A stretch of 32,234 nucleotides of DNA from Lentilactobacillus sp. Marseille-Q4993 (GTDB taxonomy: Bacteria; Bacillota; Bacilli; Lactobacillales; Lactobacillaceae), in contig NZ_CATNVB010000031.1 of the NCBI RefSeq assembly GCF_951230165.1, positions 1 through 32,234 of the forward strand. The letters are read 5' to 3'. A program made the position numbers and the translations under genes. Shown piece after piece: positions 4,881 through 20,258 of this stretch. Every line of letters begins with the position of its first letter. Positions within the stretch are counted from its first letter, which is position 1. The notes under the pieces are model-generated. The model was not told the origin of the DNA, did no database searches, and was given only the letters and a program-made list of their open reading frames with translations.

Positions 4881-4932
4881 AAAAAATGCAACGATAAATT
4901 TCAATGAAATGAAATTATCGCTGCATTTTTTT
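4881..4932. terminator. Bidirectional terminator, MFS gene and corrinoid operon
   Basis: Left arm AAAAAATGCA plus ACGATAAATTTC pairs with GAAATTATCG plus CTGCATTTTTTT (one bulged A and one mismatch). A-run and T-run on opposite sides let it serve the MFS gene on the plus strand and the pduO-like gene on the minus strand. Confidence 0.8.
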
Positions 4933-4967
4933 GTCTAGAGAATTAATATCTGTAGTCGATCATCAAG

Positions 4968-5543
4968 CTATCTAAATACTGGGTTCCCATTTCGATACAA
5001 GACATCGTCTGTCTTTTTTAAAACGTTAGCATATCTTGCAACGGCAAAGAAATAATCGGAAAGTCGGTTAATGAAAATTTCGGTTTGGGGATTAATTTCT
5101 TCTGCGTGTTGAAGGGCAATCATTTTTCGTTCAGCCCTCCGGGTAGTTGTCCGAGCAACGTGAAATGCTGATGCTTCAGGACTACCACCTGGGAGAATAA
5201 AGCGGTCAATCTTTGGCGCAGCGGCTGTGTACTTATCAATTTTTTCTTCCAGCCACTTAGTTGCCTTGGTCGCAATTTCATCTGTAAAGATAAAATCATG
5301 CTTTTTATCATCAATAGGGGTTGCTAAATCGCGGCCCACATCGAAAAGCAATTGTTGAATTTCCTGTAGTTCTTCGTGAAGTTCCTTGGTATCGGAACTA
5401 AGAATTGAGTCAGTATAACCAACCCATGAGTTAAGCTCATCAACGGTTCCATATGCATCAACGCGCAAATCGTCTTTACCAACGATTTTGTGGCCAATGA
5501 GTTGAGTGCGGCCTTTATCACCGGCACGGGTGTAAATTTTCAA
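4968..5543 (-). CDS. pduO: PduO-type ATP:cob(I)alamin adenosyltransferase
   Basis: A 191-residue enzyme that transfers the adenosyl group of ATP to cob(I)alamin, making the coenzyme adenosylcobalamin. It follows the L. reuteri PduO sequence (as I recall it) almost end to end. Visible landmarks are the ATP-binding TRAGDKGRT (residues 5-13), VDELNSWVGY with Asp35, FILPGG with Phe115 at the place of the corrin-displacing Phe112, ARTTTRRAER with Arg131 as the expected salt-bridge partner of Asp35, and INRLSDYFFAVAR. The start is TTG at 5543, supported by AAGGAGG 7 bases upstream; no in-frame ATG fits. It is the last gene of a three-gene operon, 28 bases after the DUF4430 gene, and not in a pdu cluster. 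Likely coenzyme users elsewhere in the cell would be a class II ribonucleotide reductase or diol dehydratase (inference). Confidence 0.93.
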   Translation of the reverse strand: MKIYTRAGDKGRTQLIGHKIVGKDDLRVDAYGTVDELNSWVGYTDSILSSDTKELHEELQEIQQLLFDVGRDLATPIDDKKHDFIFTDEIATKATKWLEEKIDKYTAAAPKIDRFILPGGSPEASAFHVARTTTRRAERKMIALQHAEEINPQTEIFINRLSDYFFAVARYANVLKKTDDVLYRNGNPVFR

Positions 5544-5571
5544 GGTAGTTCCTCCTTATCGCATTAAATAA

Positions 5572-6363
5572 TTAGTAACCATCAACCGCGAAGTACCATT
5601 TAACGTGGTCGCCTGCATGAAGCTTAGTTAAGTTAGCGGCATGATCAATATACTTGCCGTTTACGCGGAATTTCCAGCCACTACCGGTCTTGATGTCGTT
5701 TTCTCCTAAACCATTGATGGCTTTTACGTACACTGAAATTCCTGGTTGGTAACTAACAGGTAATTTGGTTTTTTGTAAAGCTTCGAAAGCGTTTGAACCC
5801 TTATTCATTTTTATTGACTTGTCGAAGAAAGTCTTTTTGTAGCCAATAACACTAACTTTAACCGTTATTTTAGCCTTGGCTTTGGTAGCGGCTTTTTTCT
5901 GACTAGCTTTATGGTGAGTCGGAGTTTTAGCAGCTTGAGACTGCCTTTTAGCTCTGGACTTATGAGCTTGAGGTTTACTGCTAGTTGGTTTTTGTTCAGA
6001 ACGAGCCTTTTGCCGGCTAGTCTTTCCGTTTTTAGTGTTAGTTGAGCTAGCTGTCTGCTGTGTAGAATGGTTAGCCTTTTTTGCTTTGCTAGTCTCTCGA
6101 CGTTGCTTTTTAGGGCTGATCTTCGCTGTTTTCGACTTTGGCTGACTTTTCTTTGATTGCCTTTTTGAATTTTTACTTTTGTGGGAATCCTTAGATTTTG
6201 TCGGGGTAGCTGAATTACTACTTTGGCTGGAACTGGACTTCTTTGAGCTACTATTTTGTTCAGTTTTTGGCTCAGAATTGTTCGAAGAAACCTGATGGTA
6301 TATTCCGAATCCCATTCCGATGATTAGTAAAAGGGCAATAACTAGCCCGACTTTTTTCTTCAT
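5572..6363 (-). CDS. Membrane-anchored DUF4430 (transcobalamin C-domain-like) protein
   Basis: A 263-residue protein with an N-terminal signal anchor (residues 5-24), a long Ser/Lys/Gln/Thr-rich basic spacer (about 30-165) and a C-terminal domain (about 168-263) of the DUF4430 type. That family is related to the C-terminal beta domain of transcobalamin and intrinsic factor. Typical features are the FFDKSIKMNKGSNAFEAL segment, then VYVKAINGLGENDI, GSGWKFRVNGKYI and the closing HVKWYFAVDGY. The spacer would let the domain cross the cell wall. The gene starts 23 bases after the helical-repeat protein gene and ends 28 bases before pduO. Cobalamin binding is inferred from family and context, not shown. 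DUF4430 domains also occur in bacterial surface proteins of unknown ligand. Confidence 0.8.
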   Translation of the reverse strand: MKKKVGLVIALLLIIGMGFGIYHQVSSNNSEPKTEQNSSSKKSSSSQSSNSATPTKSKDSHKSKNSKRQSKKSQPKSKTAKISPKKQRRETSKAKKANHSTQQTASSTNTKNGKTSRQKARSEQKPTSSKPQAHKSRAKRQSQAAKTPTHHKASQKKAATKAKAKITVKVSVIGYKKTFFDKSIKMNKGSNAFEALQKTKLPVSYQPGISVYVKAINGLGENDIKTGSGWKFRVNGKYIDHAANLTKLHAGDHVKWYFAVDGY

Positions 6364-6386
6364 CTAACGATACTTCCTACTATAGA

Positions 6387-7433
6387 TTATTTGAGATTAT
6401 AAACTGACTTTGATTTGAGAGCTTGCTTGTATGCTGCGACTGCAAGGTTAACTTGACCAACACCAAGAAGTTGTGAAGCAGCACCCTTGATTGAACCGGT
6501 CTTGTTTACATATGAGTACATAGCGGTTAATGGAGTCCGCTTTTGTTTGCTGTTAAGCTTTGCTTTGGCAACATACTTAGAAGTGGCTTTCTTGGTAGAA
6601 AGAGCAATGATTGATTCGGCAGTTGAGTTAGCGTTCAAGGTAGTCTTACCGTTGAAGACATAACCAAATGCACCATTAGTGGCAATTGACCCCTTGAGGA
6701 AACCAAGACCATTAGTCATACTCTTCTTAACGTGAGCAGTTGTGTATTTGCTACGAGCAAGGGCAATCATTGCCATACTTGTAGTATCTGAGTCAGTAGT
6801 GGCTACTTGGTTGTTGTATGACCAGCCACCGTTCTTTTGTTGGTCCTTAACGATTTGGTTAGTCAGACTTGCCTTAGTAAACTTAGCGTTCTTTGGGCGA
6901 CTGAAACTATTTGAAGATAGTGCAATCAAAGCTTGGCTGGCAACGTTAACCGTTTGCTTAGTCATATTCTGTTGATAAAGTCTAGAAACAAGGTTGGTAT
7001 TATACTTACCGTAAACTTTGTAGCTAGTTGGTTTAAAACCGACGGCACTAACAGCAACGATAGCATTAGCTAGATCAGCAGCTGTACTCTTCTTGTTGAT
7101 AACCAGGTTCTTTTGAACCAGATTCCGTTGAGTTGTAGTGAATTTGTAGCCATTACCCTTTAGACCAAGGAGAAAGTCAGAATAGCCTGAGGCTGCTCCA
7201 GTTGTTTTGTACATTGAACGACTAAAAATTGGGGTTTTCTTGGCTTGGCCAGAGAGACCAACTTTATTGGTAGTAAGCATTTTAGTTGCGTAGTTTGAAA
7301 GACGCTTGTTGTTAGTTGCAGCAACACTCTTTTTTGAGCTGGCAGCGTTAGTAGTTACTGGAGTGACCAATAAGGGTGCTGCTAATAAGAATGATGAACC
7401 AGCGACTAATAGTCGTTTGATTGATTTTTTCAT
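6387..7433 (-). CDS. Secreted helical-repeat (prenyltransferase/intrinsic-factor alpha-barrel-like) protein
   Basis: A 348-residue exported protein. A Sec signal peptide (basic KKSIKR, hydrophobic core, cleavage probably after TNA near residue 30) precedes alpha-helical repeats. Repeat units resemble the prenyltransferase/squalene-cyclase alpha/alpha barrel: KDQQKNGGWSYNN (a QxxxGGW-type turn) followed by a DTTSMAMIALA helix, and NGAFGYVFNGKTTLNANSTAESIIALS further on. The same fold forms the N-terminal domain of transcobalamin/intrinsic factor. There is no cyclase DxDD-type catalytic motif and no membrane anchor or sorting signal. It is the first gene of the operon with the DUF4430 protein and the corrinoid adenosyltransferase. 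I read it as the alpha half of a split corrinoid binder; the ligand is an inference. Confidence 0.75.
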   Translation of the reverse strand: MKKSIKRLLVAGSSFLLAAPLLVTPVTTNAASSKKSVAATNNKRLSNYATKMLTTNKVGLSGQAKKTPIFSRSMYKTTGAASGYSDFLLGLKGNGYKFTTTQRNLVQKNLVINKKSTAADLANAIVAVSAVGFKPTSYKVYGKYNTNLVSRLYQQNMTKQTVNVASQALIALSSNSFSRPKNAKFTKASLTNQIVKDQQKNGGWSYNNQVATTDSDTTSMAMIALARSKYTTAHVKKSMTNGLGFLKGSIATNGAFGYVFNGKTTLNANSTAESIIALSTKKATSKYVAKAKLNSKQKRTPLTAMYSYVNKTGSIKGAASQLLGVGQVNLAVAAYKQALKSKSVYNLK

Positions 7434-11752: not shown

Positions 11753-12688
11753 TTAATTATTTACTTTTGCCATTGACTCCGCGAATTTACCTTTAATGAA
11801 GTTAGCTGATGTTTGAAGCTTTTCTTTTTCTTCATCGGTTAACTTTAATTGAAGCTGTTCTTCAATCCCATCTCGGCCAACAATGGCAGGGTAGGAAAGG
11901 TATGTATCTAATTCCTTGCGGTAGTTGGACACAGGCAGTTCCTCATGAGCGTCATTTAATACAACATTCGCTAACCGAACAGCAGCAGTTGCAATCCCGT
12001 AGTTGGTATAACCCTTGCCACGGAAAACAACGTAACCGCCAATTCTAGCCTCATGATCAATTTCATCCAAGTCAAGGCCACGTTGCTCAGCGATTTCTTC
12101 AACGGGACGGCCTAAAGCACGCACGGTTGACCAAGCAGTAAATTGAGAATTACCGTGTTCACCTAAGTTATAACCGGTGACCGAACGAGGATCGATATCT
12201 AGACCATGAGCCACTGCTCGCTTCATTCGGGCTGAATCAAGTAAGGTACCAGTGCCCATCACTTGATTCTTAGGCAATCCAGTAACTTCTTGGTAGATTG
12301 AAGTAATTACATCAACTGGATTGGTGATGGCAATAAGAATACCGTTAAAACCGGTTTCTTTGATTTTTTGACCAACTTCTTTTGCTTGAGCACTTGTAAA
12401 TGGTAGTTCAGCAAACCGGTCGTCTGCCTTATTATCTTGAAGTGAAATTTTGCCTAACGCTGAAACAATCACGTCAGCATCGCCTAACGCTGAGTAATCG
12501 TTCACAGTGATGTTAGTATGGAATGGTAAATTTGCCATAGCATCTTCGAAATCTCCCGCATCAGCGATAACCTTTTGCTCGTTTGTATCAATTAAAACTA
12601 AGTCGTCCGCTGATCCTGATGAAACAATGTAATGAGCTACTGTAGAGCCGACACTTCCCATGCCGATGACACCAATTTTTCTTGTCAT
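11753..12688 (-). CDS. hicD: L-2-hydroxyisocaproate dehydrogenase (paralogue 1)
   Basis: A 311-residue NAD-dependent L-2-hydroxyacid dehydrogenase of the L-LDH family, reducing branched 2-oxo acids such as 2-oxoisocaproate. The Rossmann start GMGSVGS, the NAD-selecting Asp34 in LVLID, ITNPVDV, the substrate Arg154 with Asp151 (LLDSARM) and catalytic His178 (GEHGNSQ) are all present. The loop after the first helix resembles Weissella confusa L-HicDH rather than lactate dehydrogenase. It is about four-fifths identical by eye to the paralogue at 13918-14844. Promoter TTGAAA (12741-12746), 17 bases, TACACT (12718-12723) on the minus strand, with AGGTGAT as ribosome site. It probably reoxidises NADH during amino-acid transamination (family knowledge). 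Confidence 0.9.
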   Translation of the reverse strand: MTRKIGVIGMGSVGSTVAHYIVSSGSADDLVLIDTNEQKVIADAGDFEDAMANLPFHTNITVNDYSALGDADVIVSALGKISLQDNKADDRFAELPFTSAQAKEVGQKIKETGFNGILIAITNPVDVITSIYQEVTGLPKNQVMGTGTLLDSARMKRAVAHGLDIDPRSVTGYNLGEHGNSQFTAWSTVRALGRPVEEIAEQRGLDLDEIDHEARIGGYVVFRGKGYTNYGIATAAVRLANVVLNDAHEELPVSNYRKELDTYLSYPAIVGRDGIEEQLQLKLTDEEKEKLQTSANFIKGKFAESMAKVNN

Positions 12689-13917: not shown

Positions 13918-14844
13918 CTATTTGTCCATCGATTCCGCGAACTTTGTTTTGATAAAGTCGGCTGAAGTTTGTAACTTCTTCTTTTCTTCATCGGTCAACT
14001 TTAATTGGAGTTGTTCAACAACCCCGTCACGACCAATGATTGCTGGGTAAGACAGGTATGTTCCTAATTCCTTACGGTAGTTAGAAACTGGTAATTCCTC
14101 GTGAGCATCAGTAATAGCGGCATTTGCGAGCTTAACAGCCGCAGTTGCCACACCGTAGTTGGTGTAACCTTTGCCGTGGAAAACCGTAAAGCCTCCGGTT
14201 CTGGCTTCGGTATCGAGCTTGTCTAAGTCTAAATTACGTTCGGCAGCAATTTCAGTAATTGGGCGACCAAGCACACGAACAGTAGACCAGGCAGTAAACT
14301 GCGAGTTCCCGTGCTCACCTAAGTTATAGCCAACAACTGAGCGGGGATCAATATCCAATTCTTGTGCAACTGCCCGTTTCATTCTAGCAGAATCAAGTAA
14401 AGTACCAGTGCCCAACACCTTATTCTTTGGTAACCCAGTGATTTCTTGATAAATTGATGTAATCACGTCGACGGGATTGGTGATTGCGACAATGACGCCG
14501 TGGAAGCCAGAGTCTTTGATTTTTTGGGCAACTTCCTTAACTTGGGTACTAGTGAAGGGAAGTTCTGCAAAGCGATCATCGTTGTCGTTGTTTTGAAGCT
14601 CGATTTTACCAATCGCAGAAATGATGACATCAGCATCTGAAAGTGCTGAATAATCATTCACCGTGATGTTGGTATGGGTTGGCAAGTTGGCCATTGCGTC
14701 TTCGAAGTCACCGGCGTCAGCGACGACTTTTTCCTCACGTTTGTCGATCAAGACCAAGTCGTCAGCGTAGCCAGAGGCCACGATGTAGTGAGCAGCGGTT
14801 GAACCTACGTTTCCCATTCCAATAACACCAATTTTTCTTGTCAT
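13918..14844 (-). CDS. hicD: L-2-hydroxyisocaproate dehydrogenase (paralogue 2)
   Basis: A 308-residue paralogue of the enzyme at 11753-12688, with the same active site: Arg in LLDSARM, His in GEHGNSQ, GMGNVGS dinucleotide turn and Asp in LVLID. Differences are scattered and conservative, and the substrate-loop region differs slightly ([12 protein letters not shown] against ISLQDNKADDRF), so substrate range may have shifted. Promoter TTGTAA (14897-14902), 17 bases, TAAACT (14874-14879), matching the other copy, then AGGTGAT before the ATG. Three L. plantarum genes are known by the name hicD; which one this corresponds to I cannot say. Confidence 0.9.
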
Positions 14845-18728: not shown

Positions 18729-20258
18729 ATGGGTATGATAAACATTAATAATTTGTCGTTTAGATATGACGGCATGCAAAGCAACTTATTTAATAAGTTG
18801 AATATCAGTATCGATGAATCCTGGAAACTGGGATTGATTGGTAGAAATGGGCGAGGCAAAACCACGTTAATGAGGATTTTGCTGGGTCAACTTGAGTATA
18901 TTGGTGACGTCCAAAGTAATTTGAAATTCCACTATTTTCCGCAGGCGGTAATTAGCGATGCGGATTCAGCTCAGAACGTTGTCTTAAAAATGGCTGGAAT
19001 TGATATTAGTGAACTTTGGCGAATTCAAATTGAAATGGATAAGCTGCAACTGAAAGATACTGTCTTGAATCAACAATTTAGTACGCTCAGTCCAGGTGAA
19101 AAGACCAAGCTAAAACTAGCTGTTCTATTTAGTGATGAAAATACATTTAAACTGATTGATGAGCCAACCAATCATTTAGATGTTGATGGTAGAAAGATTG
19201 TTGCGGATTATCTTAAGCAGAAGACTGGCTTTATCGTTGTTAGTCATGACCGTGACCTAATCAATAAAGTAGTCGATCACGTGATGTCTATTGATAGAAG
19301 TAAGGTTGAGGTTCTGAAGGGTGATTACGACACCTGGAAGGTAGCGTTTGACCAGCAAAACGAATTTGAAAAGCGGAAAAAGGCTGAAATTGAGGGTGAT
19401 GTCAAAAGGCTGGAGAAAGCTGCCAAACGGGTTAGTCAATGGGGCAACAACACCGAAAATAAGAAGGGCCAGTCAGCGTATAAGGGCCAAGGCCATGTCG
19501 ACCTTGATAAAGGGTTCATTGGGCATAAAGCTGCTAAGGTTATGAAACGCAAAAAGGTGATGGAACGACGAACCGATAGTGAAATTGAAGAAAAGAAGAG
19601 CTTACTCAAGAATATTGATGAAGAGCAGGAACTAACGCTTAACTTTAGCCGGACTCCTCAGAAGAACCTGCTAACGGTTTCGGACTTTACGGTTAGTCGA
19701 TCAGGCCACCAACTGATTGAACCGATTTCGTTTAAAATTGGTCGGCACGATAGAGTAGCGATTATGGGTCCAAATGGGATTGGTAAGACAACGGTAATAA
19801 GGGCAATTTTAGGGGATGAAAGCATCGAAACCCAAGGAACTAGCAAACTAGCCGGTGGGCTTAAGATCTCCTATGTTGGCCAGCTGTTTGATAATGTTAA
19901 TGGAGATTTGAGAGAATACGCCGAAAGCAACAAGTTGGACCTGTCCTTATTCTTGAATGCGCTGCGAAAACTCGGATTTGATCGGTCTGTGTTCGACAAC
20001 AAGATGGAAGATATGAGTATGGGCCAGAAACGGAAAATTTCGTTAGCAAAGTCGTTAGTTGAGCCTGCAAATCTTTACGTTTGGGATGAACCGCTGAATT
20101 ATTTGGACATTATTACCAGACAAGAAATTGAAAACCTAGTTTTGGAGGTCAAGCCGCCAATGTTGTTTATTGATCATGATGTGATGTTTGTGAGGGATGT
20201 GGCGACGGAAAAGATTACTTTGCGAATGAATAGTAGCGGTGAAGAATTACGATATTAG
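18729..20258 (+). CDS. ABC-F ribosomal protection protein, Lsa-like
   Basis: A 509-residue cytosolic twin-ATPase without membrane segments. Walker A motifs GRNGRGKT (residues 38-45) and GPNGIGKT, signature sequences LSPGEKTKL and MSMGQKRKI, and Walker B/H-loop regions LIDEPTNHLD and VWDEPLNYLD with VVSHDRD and FIDHDV define two domains. Between them is a charged linker (about 215-310), the part that reaches the ribosomal peptidyl-transferase centre in resistance ABC-F proteins. The start LFNKLNISIDESWKLGLIGRNGRGKTT is split like that of the Lsa family, whose members give resistance to lincosamides, streptogramin A and pleuromutilins. The drug spectrum here is inferred. AAGAGGTG lies 8 bases before the ATG. 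Confidence 0.88.
   Translation: MGMININNLSFRYDGMQSNLFNKLNISIDESWKLGLIGRNGRGKTTLMRILLGQLEYIGDVQSNLKFHYFPQAVISDADSAQNVVLKMAGIDISELWRIQIEMDKLQLKDTVLNQQFSTLSPGEKTKLKLAVLFSDENTFKLIDEPTNHLDVDGRKIVADYLKQKTGFIVVSHDRDLINKVVDHVMSIDRSKVEVLKGDYDTWKVAFDQQNEFEKRKKAEIEGDVKRLEKAAKRVSQWGNNTENKKGQSAYKGQGHVDLDKGFIGHKAAKVMKRKKVMERRTDSEIEEKKSLLKNIDEEQELTLNFSRTPQKNLLTVSDFTVSRSGHQLIEPISFKIGRHDRVAIMGPNGIGKTTVIRAILGDESIETQGTSKLAGGLKISYVGQLFDNVNGDLREYAESNKLDLSLFLNALRKLGFDRSVFDNKMEDMSMGQKRKISLAKSLVEPANLYVWDEPLNYLDIITRQEIENLVLEVKPPMLFIDHDVMFVRDVATEKITLRMNSSGEELRY

Follow-up and report, generated by a model that had tools for sequence, protein, structure and literature searches.

Animal transcobalamin, intrinsic factor and haptocorrin carry a toroid and a beta domain in a single chain. 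In bacteria, BtuG is a beta-propeller protein that works with a TonB-dependent transporter. BtuG surface lipoproteins of Bacteroides capture B12 (PMC6143338); the locus described here resembles them in the proposed capture of B12 by surface proteins, the difference being that BtuG hosts are Gram-negative. Exported bacterial SLBB proteins, often with a toroid, were proposed to be B12 scavengers (Burroughs et al. 2007, PMC1796856), and the same paper describes SLBB genes in operons with CbiO/CbiQ-like transporter genes and an intracellular AraC-SLBB protein in Lactobacillus. An nrdJ-cbrS-cbrT-pduO cluster and the transporter ECF-CbrT, which carries cobinamide too, were reported for Lactobacillus delbrueckii (Santos et al. 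2018, PMC5997447); as named in the accessible text, the cluster has no toroid, and cbrS is mentioned there once, without a function. A CblT/CblS/CobS/CobC salvage operon plus CbrVUT was described on plasmid pMF1298-5 of Lactiplantibacillus plantarum (PMC6722938).

Fused toroid-SLBB proteins, the proposal of B12 scavenging (2007) and the nrdJ-cbrS-cbrT-pduO cluster are already known. The accessible text of Burroughs et al. (PMC1796856) treats toroid-SLBB fusions and paralogous SLBB pairs, whereas we describe a split pair of toroid and SLBB protein; this two-chain form is new, as is its linkage to PduO, CbrT, QueG and riboswitches, which is absent from that text. Within open-licence PubMed Central, our literature search turned up neither a split toroid/SLBB pair nor an association of DUF4430 with CbrT nor a partnership of such proteins with an ECF transporter. 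ECF vitamin transporters are, to our knowledge, understood to work without extracellular binding proteins, and a possible extracellular capture module for one of them is new as well.

The window, that is, the whole stretch of 32,234 nucleotides of Lentilactobacillus sp. Marseille-Q4993 that was analysed, contains three open reading frames on the minus strand. TOR (6387-7433) is an exported alpha/alpha-toroid protein of 348 residues, the proposed alpha half of a trap; SLBB (5572-6363) is a membrane-anchored protein of 263 residues with a Lys/Ser-rich spacer and a C-terminal DUF4430 domain, which is transcobalamin beta-like; and PduO (4968-5543) is an ATP:cob(I)alamin adenosyltransferase of 191 residues with a TTG start. 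They lie in the transcription order TOR, SLBB, PduO with intergenic gaps of 23 and 28 nt and have ribosome-binding sites (AAGGAAG, AGGAAG and AAGGAGG, respectively) 5' of their starts, which confirms the single unit claimed by the first-pass annotation. With PduO linked to the pair in the window, a single transcription unit would then cover both uptake and activation. TOR and SLBB are encoded in different frames across the 23-nt gap and are not a single chain. A terminator-like hairpin 3' of PduO (about 4881-4933, minus strand) was read in the sequence; it is near-perfect and near-symmetric, has A and T runs on its flanks and could serve both strands. The consensus terminator scan did not list it, and promoter and terminator consensus scans of the window had a yield not above that of shuffles. 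A microRNA Rfam match over the hairpin (E 0.31) was taken as chance, and the window has no Rfam match at the gathering threshold and no riboswitch. BLAST with relatives' genes found no ECF S- or T-component gene in the window, and the sole ATPase match (22%) was to an ABC protein at 18729-20258.

The DUF4430 assignment of SLBB is given by PF14478 (55.8 bits vs a cut-off of 23.8, residues 189-258), and the domain proper was placed at 5590-5799 (minus strand) in the genome search. The protein has a single hydrophobic segment, whose best 19-residue window begins at residue 5; it has no cysteine and therefore no lipobox. The spacer comprises the 136 residues 30-165, with 39 K/R vs 5 D/E. A whole-protein SLBB profile matched PDB entries on low-complexity spacer stretches, and a domain-only profile did not reach transcobalamin or intrinsic factor in the PDB, the best match being an antibody chain (0.013). 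PduO is full length, matching positions 1-171 of the 171 in PF01923 (195.2 bits vs a cut-off of 24) and also TIGR00636 (205.8 bits vs a cut-off of 108.45), so that both cut-offs are exceeded over the whole domain.

By eye, the N-terminus of TOR is of the Sec type. From the sequence alone, neither Pfam nor NCBIfam nor a single-sequence search of the PDB gave a helpful match, Pfam having nothing near a cut-off (best E 0.16), and its profile matched squalene-cyclase domains in the PDB (1.8e-5 and 7.2e-10). It had been annotated as an alpha-helical repeat protein; it is predicted to be an alpha/alpha toroid (pLDDT 88). The TOR model alone is closer to terpene cyclases than to the cobalamin carriers, which counts against the trap. 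A linked model was made for a relative locus, L055, by reading through stop codons to join the TOR and SLBB chains. Intrinsic factor was its best match of the 999 PDB chains compared, spanning both domains over 339 residues, and ranks 1-6 were all intrinsic factor, transcobalamin and haptocorrin entries; the pTM of the model is 0.58, its rmsd to the carriers is 4.9-7.0 A, and recall of transcobalamin and intrinsic factor by AlphaFold2 is possible. It has extra short strands after a helix (residues 555-572). At the level of computed models, TOR adopts the toroid fold and the relative's linked pair places its two domains in a manner resembling transcobalamin and intrinsic factor. Searches of the PDB with phmmer or profiles, up to E 10, gave no sequence match to solved transcobalamin, intrinsic factor or haptocorrin. 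The toroid and the beta domain are common to the animal carriers and to TOR plus SLBB, for which cobalamin binding is predicted, and no sequence similarity was found between them; unlike the animal carriers, the bacterial pair consists of two separately exported chains, one of which, SLBB, is membrane-anchored with a wall spacer.

The genomic neighbourhood of the pair was surveyed with a TOR alignment in a collection of 84,980 species, which gave 48 loci, among them near-identical ones and ones that share a genome. SLBB was the next gene or part of the same reading frame in 42 of them, and fused TOR+SLBB frames occur naturally beside split pairs in several genomes. The same-strand run includes ECF genes (an S-component, or T plus A) at 33 of the 48 loci (34 with a looser rule), and four further loci (L041, L047, L075, L085) have ECF genes when read by eye; in L052 the ECF genes are on the strand opposite to TOR. 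A pdu gene was inside the examined stretch in 20/48. Six loci (L040, L046, L048, L049, L054, L080) lack every one of ECF S, ECF T, pdu, NrdJ and QueG over the stretch examined. In Lentilactobacillus, TOR and DUF4430 were found in the same 17 of 24 genomes, and PduO in those 17 and in one 83%-complete genome. TOR followed ECF genes in 13 of 20 Lentilactobacillus stretches (EcfA was called in 13, EcfT in 11 and the S-component in 11), nearly always with SLBB next. A relative's S-component had as its only PDB sequence match 6fnp_A, an ECF-CbrT entry (6.3e-9). The conserved order of ECF genes and TOR-SLBB, with a CbrT-like S-component, agrees with the ECF-type importer suggested by the first-pass annotation, and the pair usually occurs with corrinoid links, be they ECF, pdu, NrdJ, QueG or riboswitch. 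The corrinoid reading thus withstood both refuting conditions that were examined, the structural one and that of the gene neighbourhoods. PduO was in the same-strand run in only one of the 48 loci, L070 of Levilactobacillus angrenensis (EcfT-EcfAA-EcfS-TOR-SLBB-PduO); it comes right after the TOR-SLBB pair in the window and in L070 only, which counts against the trap.

Cobalamin riboswitches (RF00174) were found 5' of TOR on the same strand in all seven loci outside Lactobacillaceae (L081-L087, from Metabacillus, Bacillus, Coriobacteriales and Clostridia). The riboswitch is directly before the TOR homologue in six of the seven and one gene further in the other; counted to the first possible ORF starts, its distance to the TOR-containing frame is 42-186 nt in six loci and about 1.1 kb in L086. 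L087 has two TOR genes, with the riboswitch ahead of the first, and in L084 the fused toroid-SLBB protein is preceded by a CobQ-like protein and by BtuR/CobO (167.8 bits). Within Lactobacillaceae, the window and eight loci (L005, L055, L070, L099, L106, L089, L098, L094) were scanned, and none showed a riboswitch 5' of TOR or SLBB; in L070, an AdoCbl riboswitch comes right behind PduO.

Co-occurrence of SLBB with PduO and B12-dependent enzymes, put forward as a check by the first-pass annotation, was evident in the genomes of Lactobacillaceae. DUF4430 was present in 39 of 151 genomes, PduO above cut-off in 36 (in one of them, G085, which is 65% complete, the match is a fragment of 64 aa) and both in 33. 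The six SLBB genomes without PduO had no NrdJ, PF02310 (B12-binding domain) or PF02572 (BtuR/CobO), and all six had QueG (limit E 1e-30; query TIGR00276, 381 bits). QueG is a cobalamin enzyme that is not known to require adenosylation. PduO or QueG accompanies SLBB in 39/39 genomes, vs 9/112 of those that lack SLBB (Fisher 7.8e-28, with relatedness left out of account). Taken genus by genus, PduO was present in 15/15 with SLBB vs 1/25 without (p 4e-10). Six genomes without SLBB have QueG and three have PduO; therefore, the link is not two-way. Two of the genomes with PduO and no SLBB (G046, G160) encode PF07685 proteins of 456-510 aa, the size of CobQ/CbiA, and so look like B12 makers. The source genome has no PF07685 protein of that size, only frames of 239 and 233 aa.

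A PduO match was found within 0.6 kb downstream of SLBB on the same strand in 12 of the 33 genomes with both, from six genera. SLBB and PduO are neighbours in the window, and eight of the other 11 places were examined. A CbrT-like S-component gene lies between SLBB and PduO in seven of the eight (that of L089 matches 6fnp_A at 8.8e-58), and an unnamed 180-aa frame does so in the eighth, L096. The gene before SLBB is NrdJ (TIGR02505) in seven of the eight, namely L089, L090, L092, L095, L096, L098 and L114 and not L097. CbrT thus stands with PduO and NrdJ as in the L. delbrueckii cluster (PMC5997447), and since the gene between NrdJ and CbrT in the relatives is an SLBB protein, cbrS of L. delbrueckii should, going by position, be an SLBB gene. 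The SLBB proteins in this layout are short (about 130-150 aa), and three of eight checked have a lipobox by a simple pattern. The flanks examined held no toroid, except for a weak match in L097; therefore, SLBB may act without TOR.

The source genome has NrdJ and a cluster for glycerol/propanediol dehydratase that includes an AraC regulator with a DUF4430 domain of its own. The single CbrT-like S-component found in it is on contig C9 (6fnp_A, 2.1e-14). Its neighbours there are EcfT, a fused EcfA, two SLBB genes and two genes for toroids, of which one has 777 aa; S-component, EcfT and EcfA are thus present in the genome and absent from the window cassette.

The predicted fold, the linked-model match, the ECF-CbrT genes, the co-occurrence and the riboswitch linkage favour the corrinoid trap proposed by the first-pass annotation. 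Weighing against it are the absence of an ECF S- or T-component gene and of a riboswitch from the window, the lack of a sequence match to the animal carriers, the limits of the linked model and the six TOR loci bare of ECF S/T, pdu, NrdJ and QueG genes. We consider it likely that the cassette is a two-chain trap like transcobalamin and intrinsic factor, combined with the activating enzyme and feeding a CbrT-like ECF transporter. That the TOR/SLBB system handles corrinoids is very likely in our view; that TOR and SLBB form one site is probable, and that the corrinoid passes on to CbrT is somewhat less so. The exported TOR would supply the toroid half of the site, and the membrane-held SLBB would project its beta-grasp domain through the wall on the positively charged spacer, with cobalamin or a related corrinoid held between them. 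We infer corrinoid binding, a clamp of separate chains, hand-over and service of the window copy by an ECF transporter, in this genome the single CbrT-like importer found on C9, which has its own TOR and SLBB genes. Inside the cell, PduO would convert the corrinoid to adenosylcobalamin for NrdJ and glycerol/propanediol dehydratase.

Other explanations were weighed against the two-chain trap. SLBB alone could be the corrinoid receptor for the ECF transporter, with TOR an accessory wall, glycan-binding or structural protein that has no contact with the vitamin. This is unlikely, as TOR homologues directly follow the riboswitch in six of the seven loci outside Lactobacillaceae, several genomes encode TOR and SLBB as a single fused chain and the linked model matches intrinsic factor and transcobalamin across both domains; the lectin name given to some TORs is also without Pfam support in the five scanned. 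Less probable still is capture of another corrinoid (cobinamide, pseudocobalamin or another cobamide) for salvage. Cobinamide is also carried by ECF-CbrT (PMC5997447), one plasmid copy is 4.4 kb from cobS and a salvage operon accompanies CbrVUT on pMF1298-5 (PMC6722938), but we see nothing in favour of a ligand other than cobalamin in the case of the window copy, and the linked genes do not separate the cobamides.

We give very little credence to the remaining two explanations. TOR as a secreted class II terpene-cyclase-like enzyme, beside SLBB and PduO by coincidence, would account for its best fold matches, which are squalene-hopene and drimenyl diphosphate cyclases, and for the D-x-D-x-T motif, which is invariant in 30/30 rows of the TOR alignment (as D-S-D-T-T, D-A-D-T-T or D-T-D-I-T) and aligns with DVDDT of drimenyl diphosphate synthase. 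The catalytic motif of class II terpene cyclases is DXDD. We rejected a cyclase on the DxDxT found in place of this motif and on the corrinoid gene context; Export of the Sec type, the cobalamin riboswitches, the linkage to ECF-CbrT and the fusions with SLBB all speak against it. A decaying or redundant duplicate, with the C9 locus doing the work, would agree with the lack of an adjoining ECF transporter, with the two TOR and two SLBB genes on C9 and with the divergence of the window TOR, which shares at most 58% identity with any relative in the tree. The three intact reading frames have good ribosome-binding sites, however, and TOR and SLBB of the window keep the invariant residues of their families. 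In the tree, the window TOR falls in an 11-row set (support 99/95) that includes two ECF-linked TORs and eight whose neighbour is a long toroid-SLBB protein, with no ECF; its exact place is unsure because of its long branch (0.49).

With the two-chain trap, DUF4430 arms and 'fucose-binding lectin II' toroids, families without an assigned function, gain a testable mechanism, and an ECF transporter may possess an extracellular capture module. A broader scheme, for which we see an even chance, is that in a Gram-positive lineage a dedicated, split 'intrinsic factor' is coupled to the ECF transporter specific for B12. Its toroid, loosely held or free to diffuse, would be clamped onto the ligand by the wall-spanning SLBB arm, and the AraC-SLBB regulators would use their SLBB domain intracellularly to sense the vitamin. 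Since split and fused versions stand side by side, the family would record the domain shuffling behind animal transcobalamin; a bacterial two-chain counterpart of intrinsic factor bears on the origin of the animal B12 carriers.

Such traps, some of which are plasmid-borne, may serve food and gut lactic acid bacteria in the competition for B12. TORs 89-100% identical to that of L058 are on seven plasmids, five of them mobilizable, in Levilactobacillus, Lactiplantibacillus, Lactobacillus and Lentilactobacillus. The name 'fucose-binding lectin II', which we do not adopt, is used for TOR in six of the seven plasmid records. The accessible text on pMF1298-5 names the transporter and salvage genes and not TOR or SLBB (PMC6722938); on this plasmid the CbrVUT genes are followed by TOR and DUF4430 genes (EcfT-EcfA-EcfS-TOR-DUF4430), as in the ECF-TOR-SLBB loci. 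In p47-5, the order is DUF5776 protein-TOR-DUF4430, and this is the copy 4.4 kb away from cobS.

The genome of the window carries another corrinoid-type locus on contig C9 (L005:5537-13828), which encodes a 777-aa toroid protein, a DUF4430 (SLBB) protein, a copy of the toroid protein TOR, a further SLBB protein, EcfT, fused EcfA and a CbrT-like S-component. In a Coriobacteriales locus (L084:5364-11215), a fused toroid-SLBB protein is found together with BtuR/CobO, a CobQ-like protein and a cobalamin riboswitch, and in Levilactobacillus angrenensis PduO is immediately followed by an AdoCbl riboswitch (RF01482, 79.2 bits, L070:12533-12684).

On contig C3 of the window's genome, an AraC-type regulator whose C-terminus carries a DUF4430 domain (L006:9520-10614) is encoded next to glycerol kinase and the glycerol/propanediol dehydratase cluster. 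AraC-SLBB proteins of Lactobacillus were described previously (Burroughs 2007, PMC1796856). This one represents an SLBB of the cytosolic kind, and is possibly a B12 sensor. QueG was present in all six Lactobacillaceae genomes having SLBB without PduO (G047, G089, G109, G113, G117 and G138), which suggests that these import B12 solely for queuosine synthesis.

The invariant D-x-D-x-T motif of TOR (residues 214–218, window 6780-6794) aligns with the DVDDT segment of a class II terpene cyclase, and may have been reused in corrinoid binding. TOR genes are carried on plasmids in several genera; the name given to them in plasmid records, "fucose-binding lectin II" (L118:7001-8053 and L119:8977-10023), is unsupported by Pfam.

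Elsewhere in the window, two lactate/2-hydroxyacid-dehydrogenase-like genes of close mutual similarity (11753-12688 and 13918-14844) flank a HAD-hydrolase-like gene, all named by eye.
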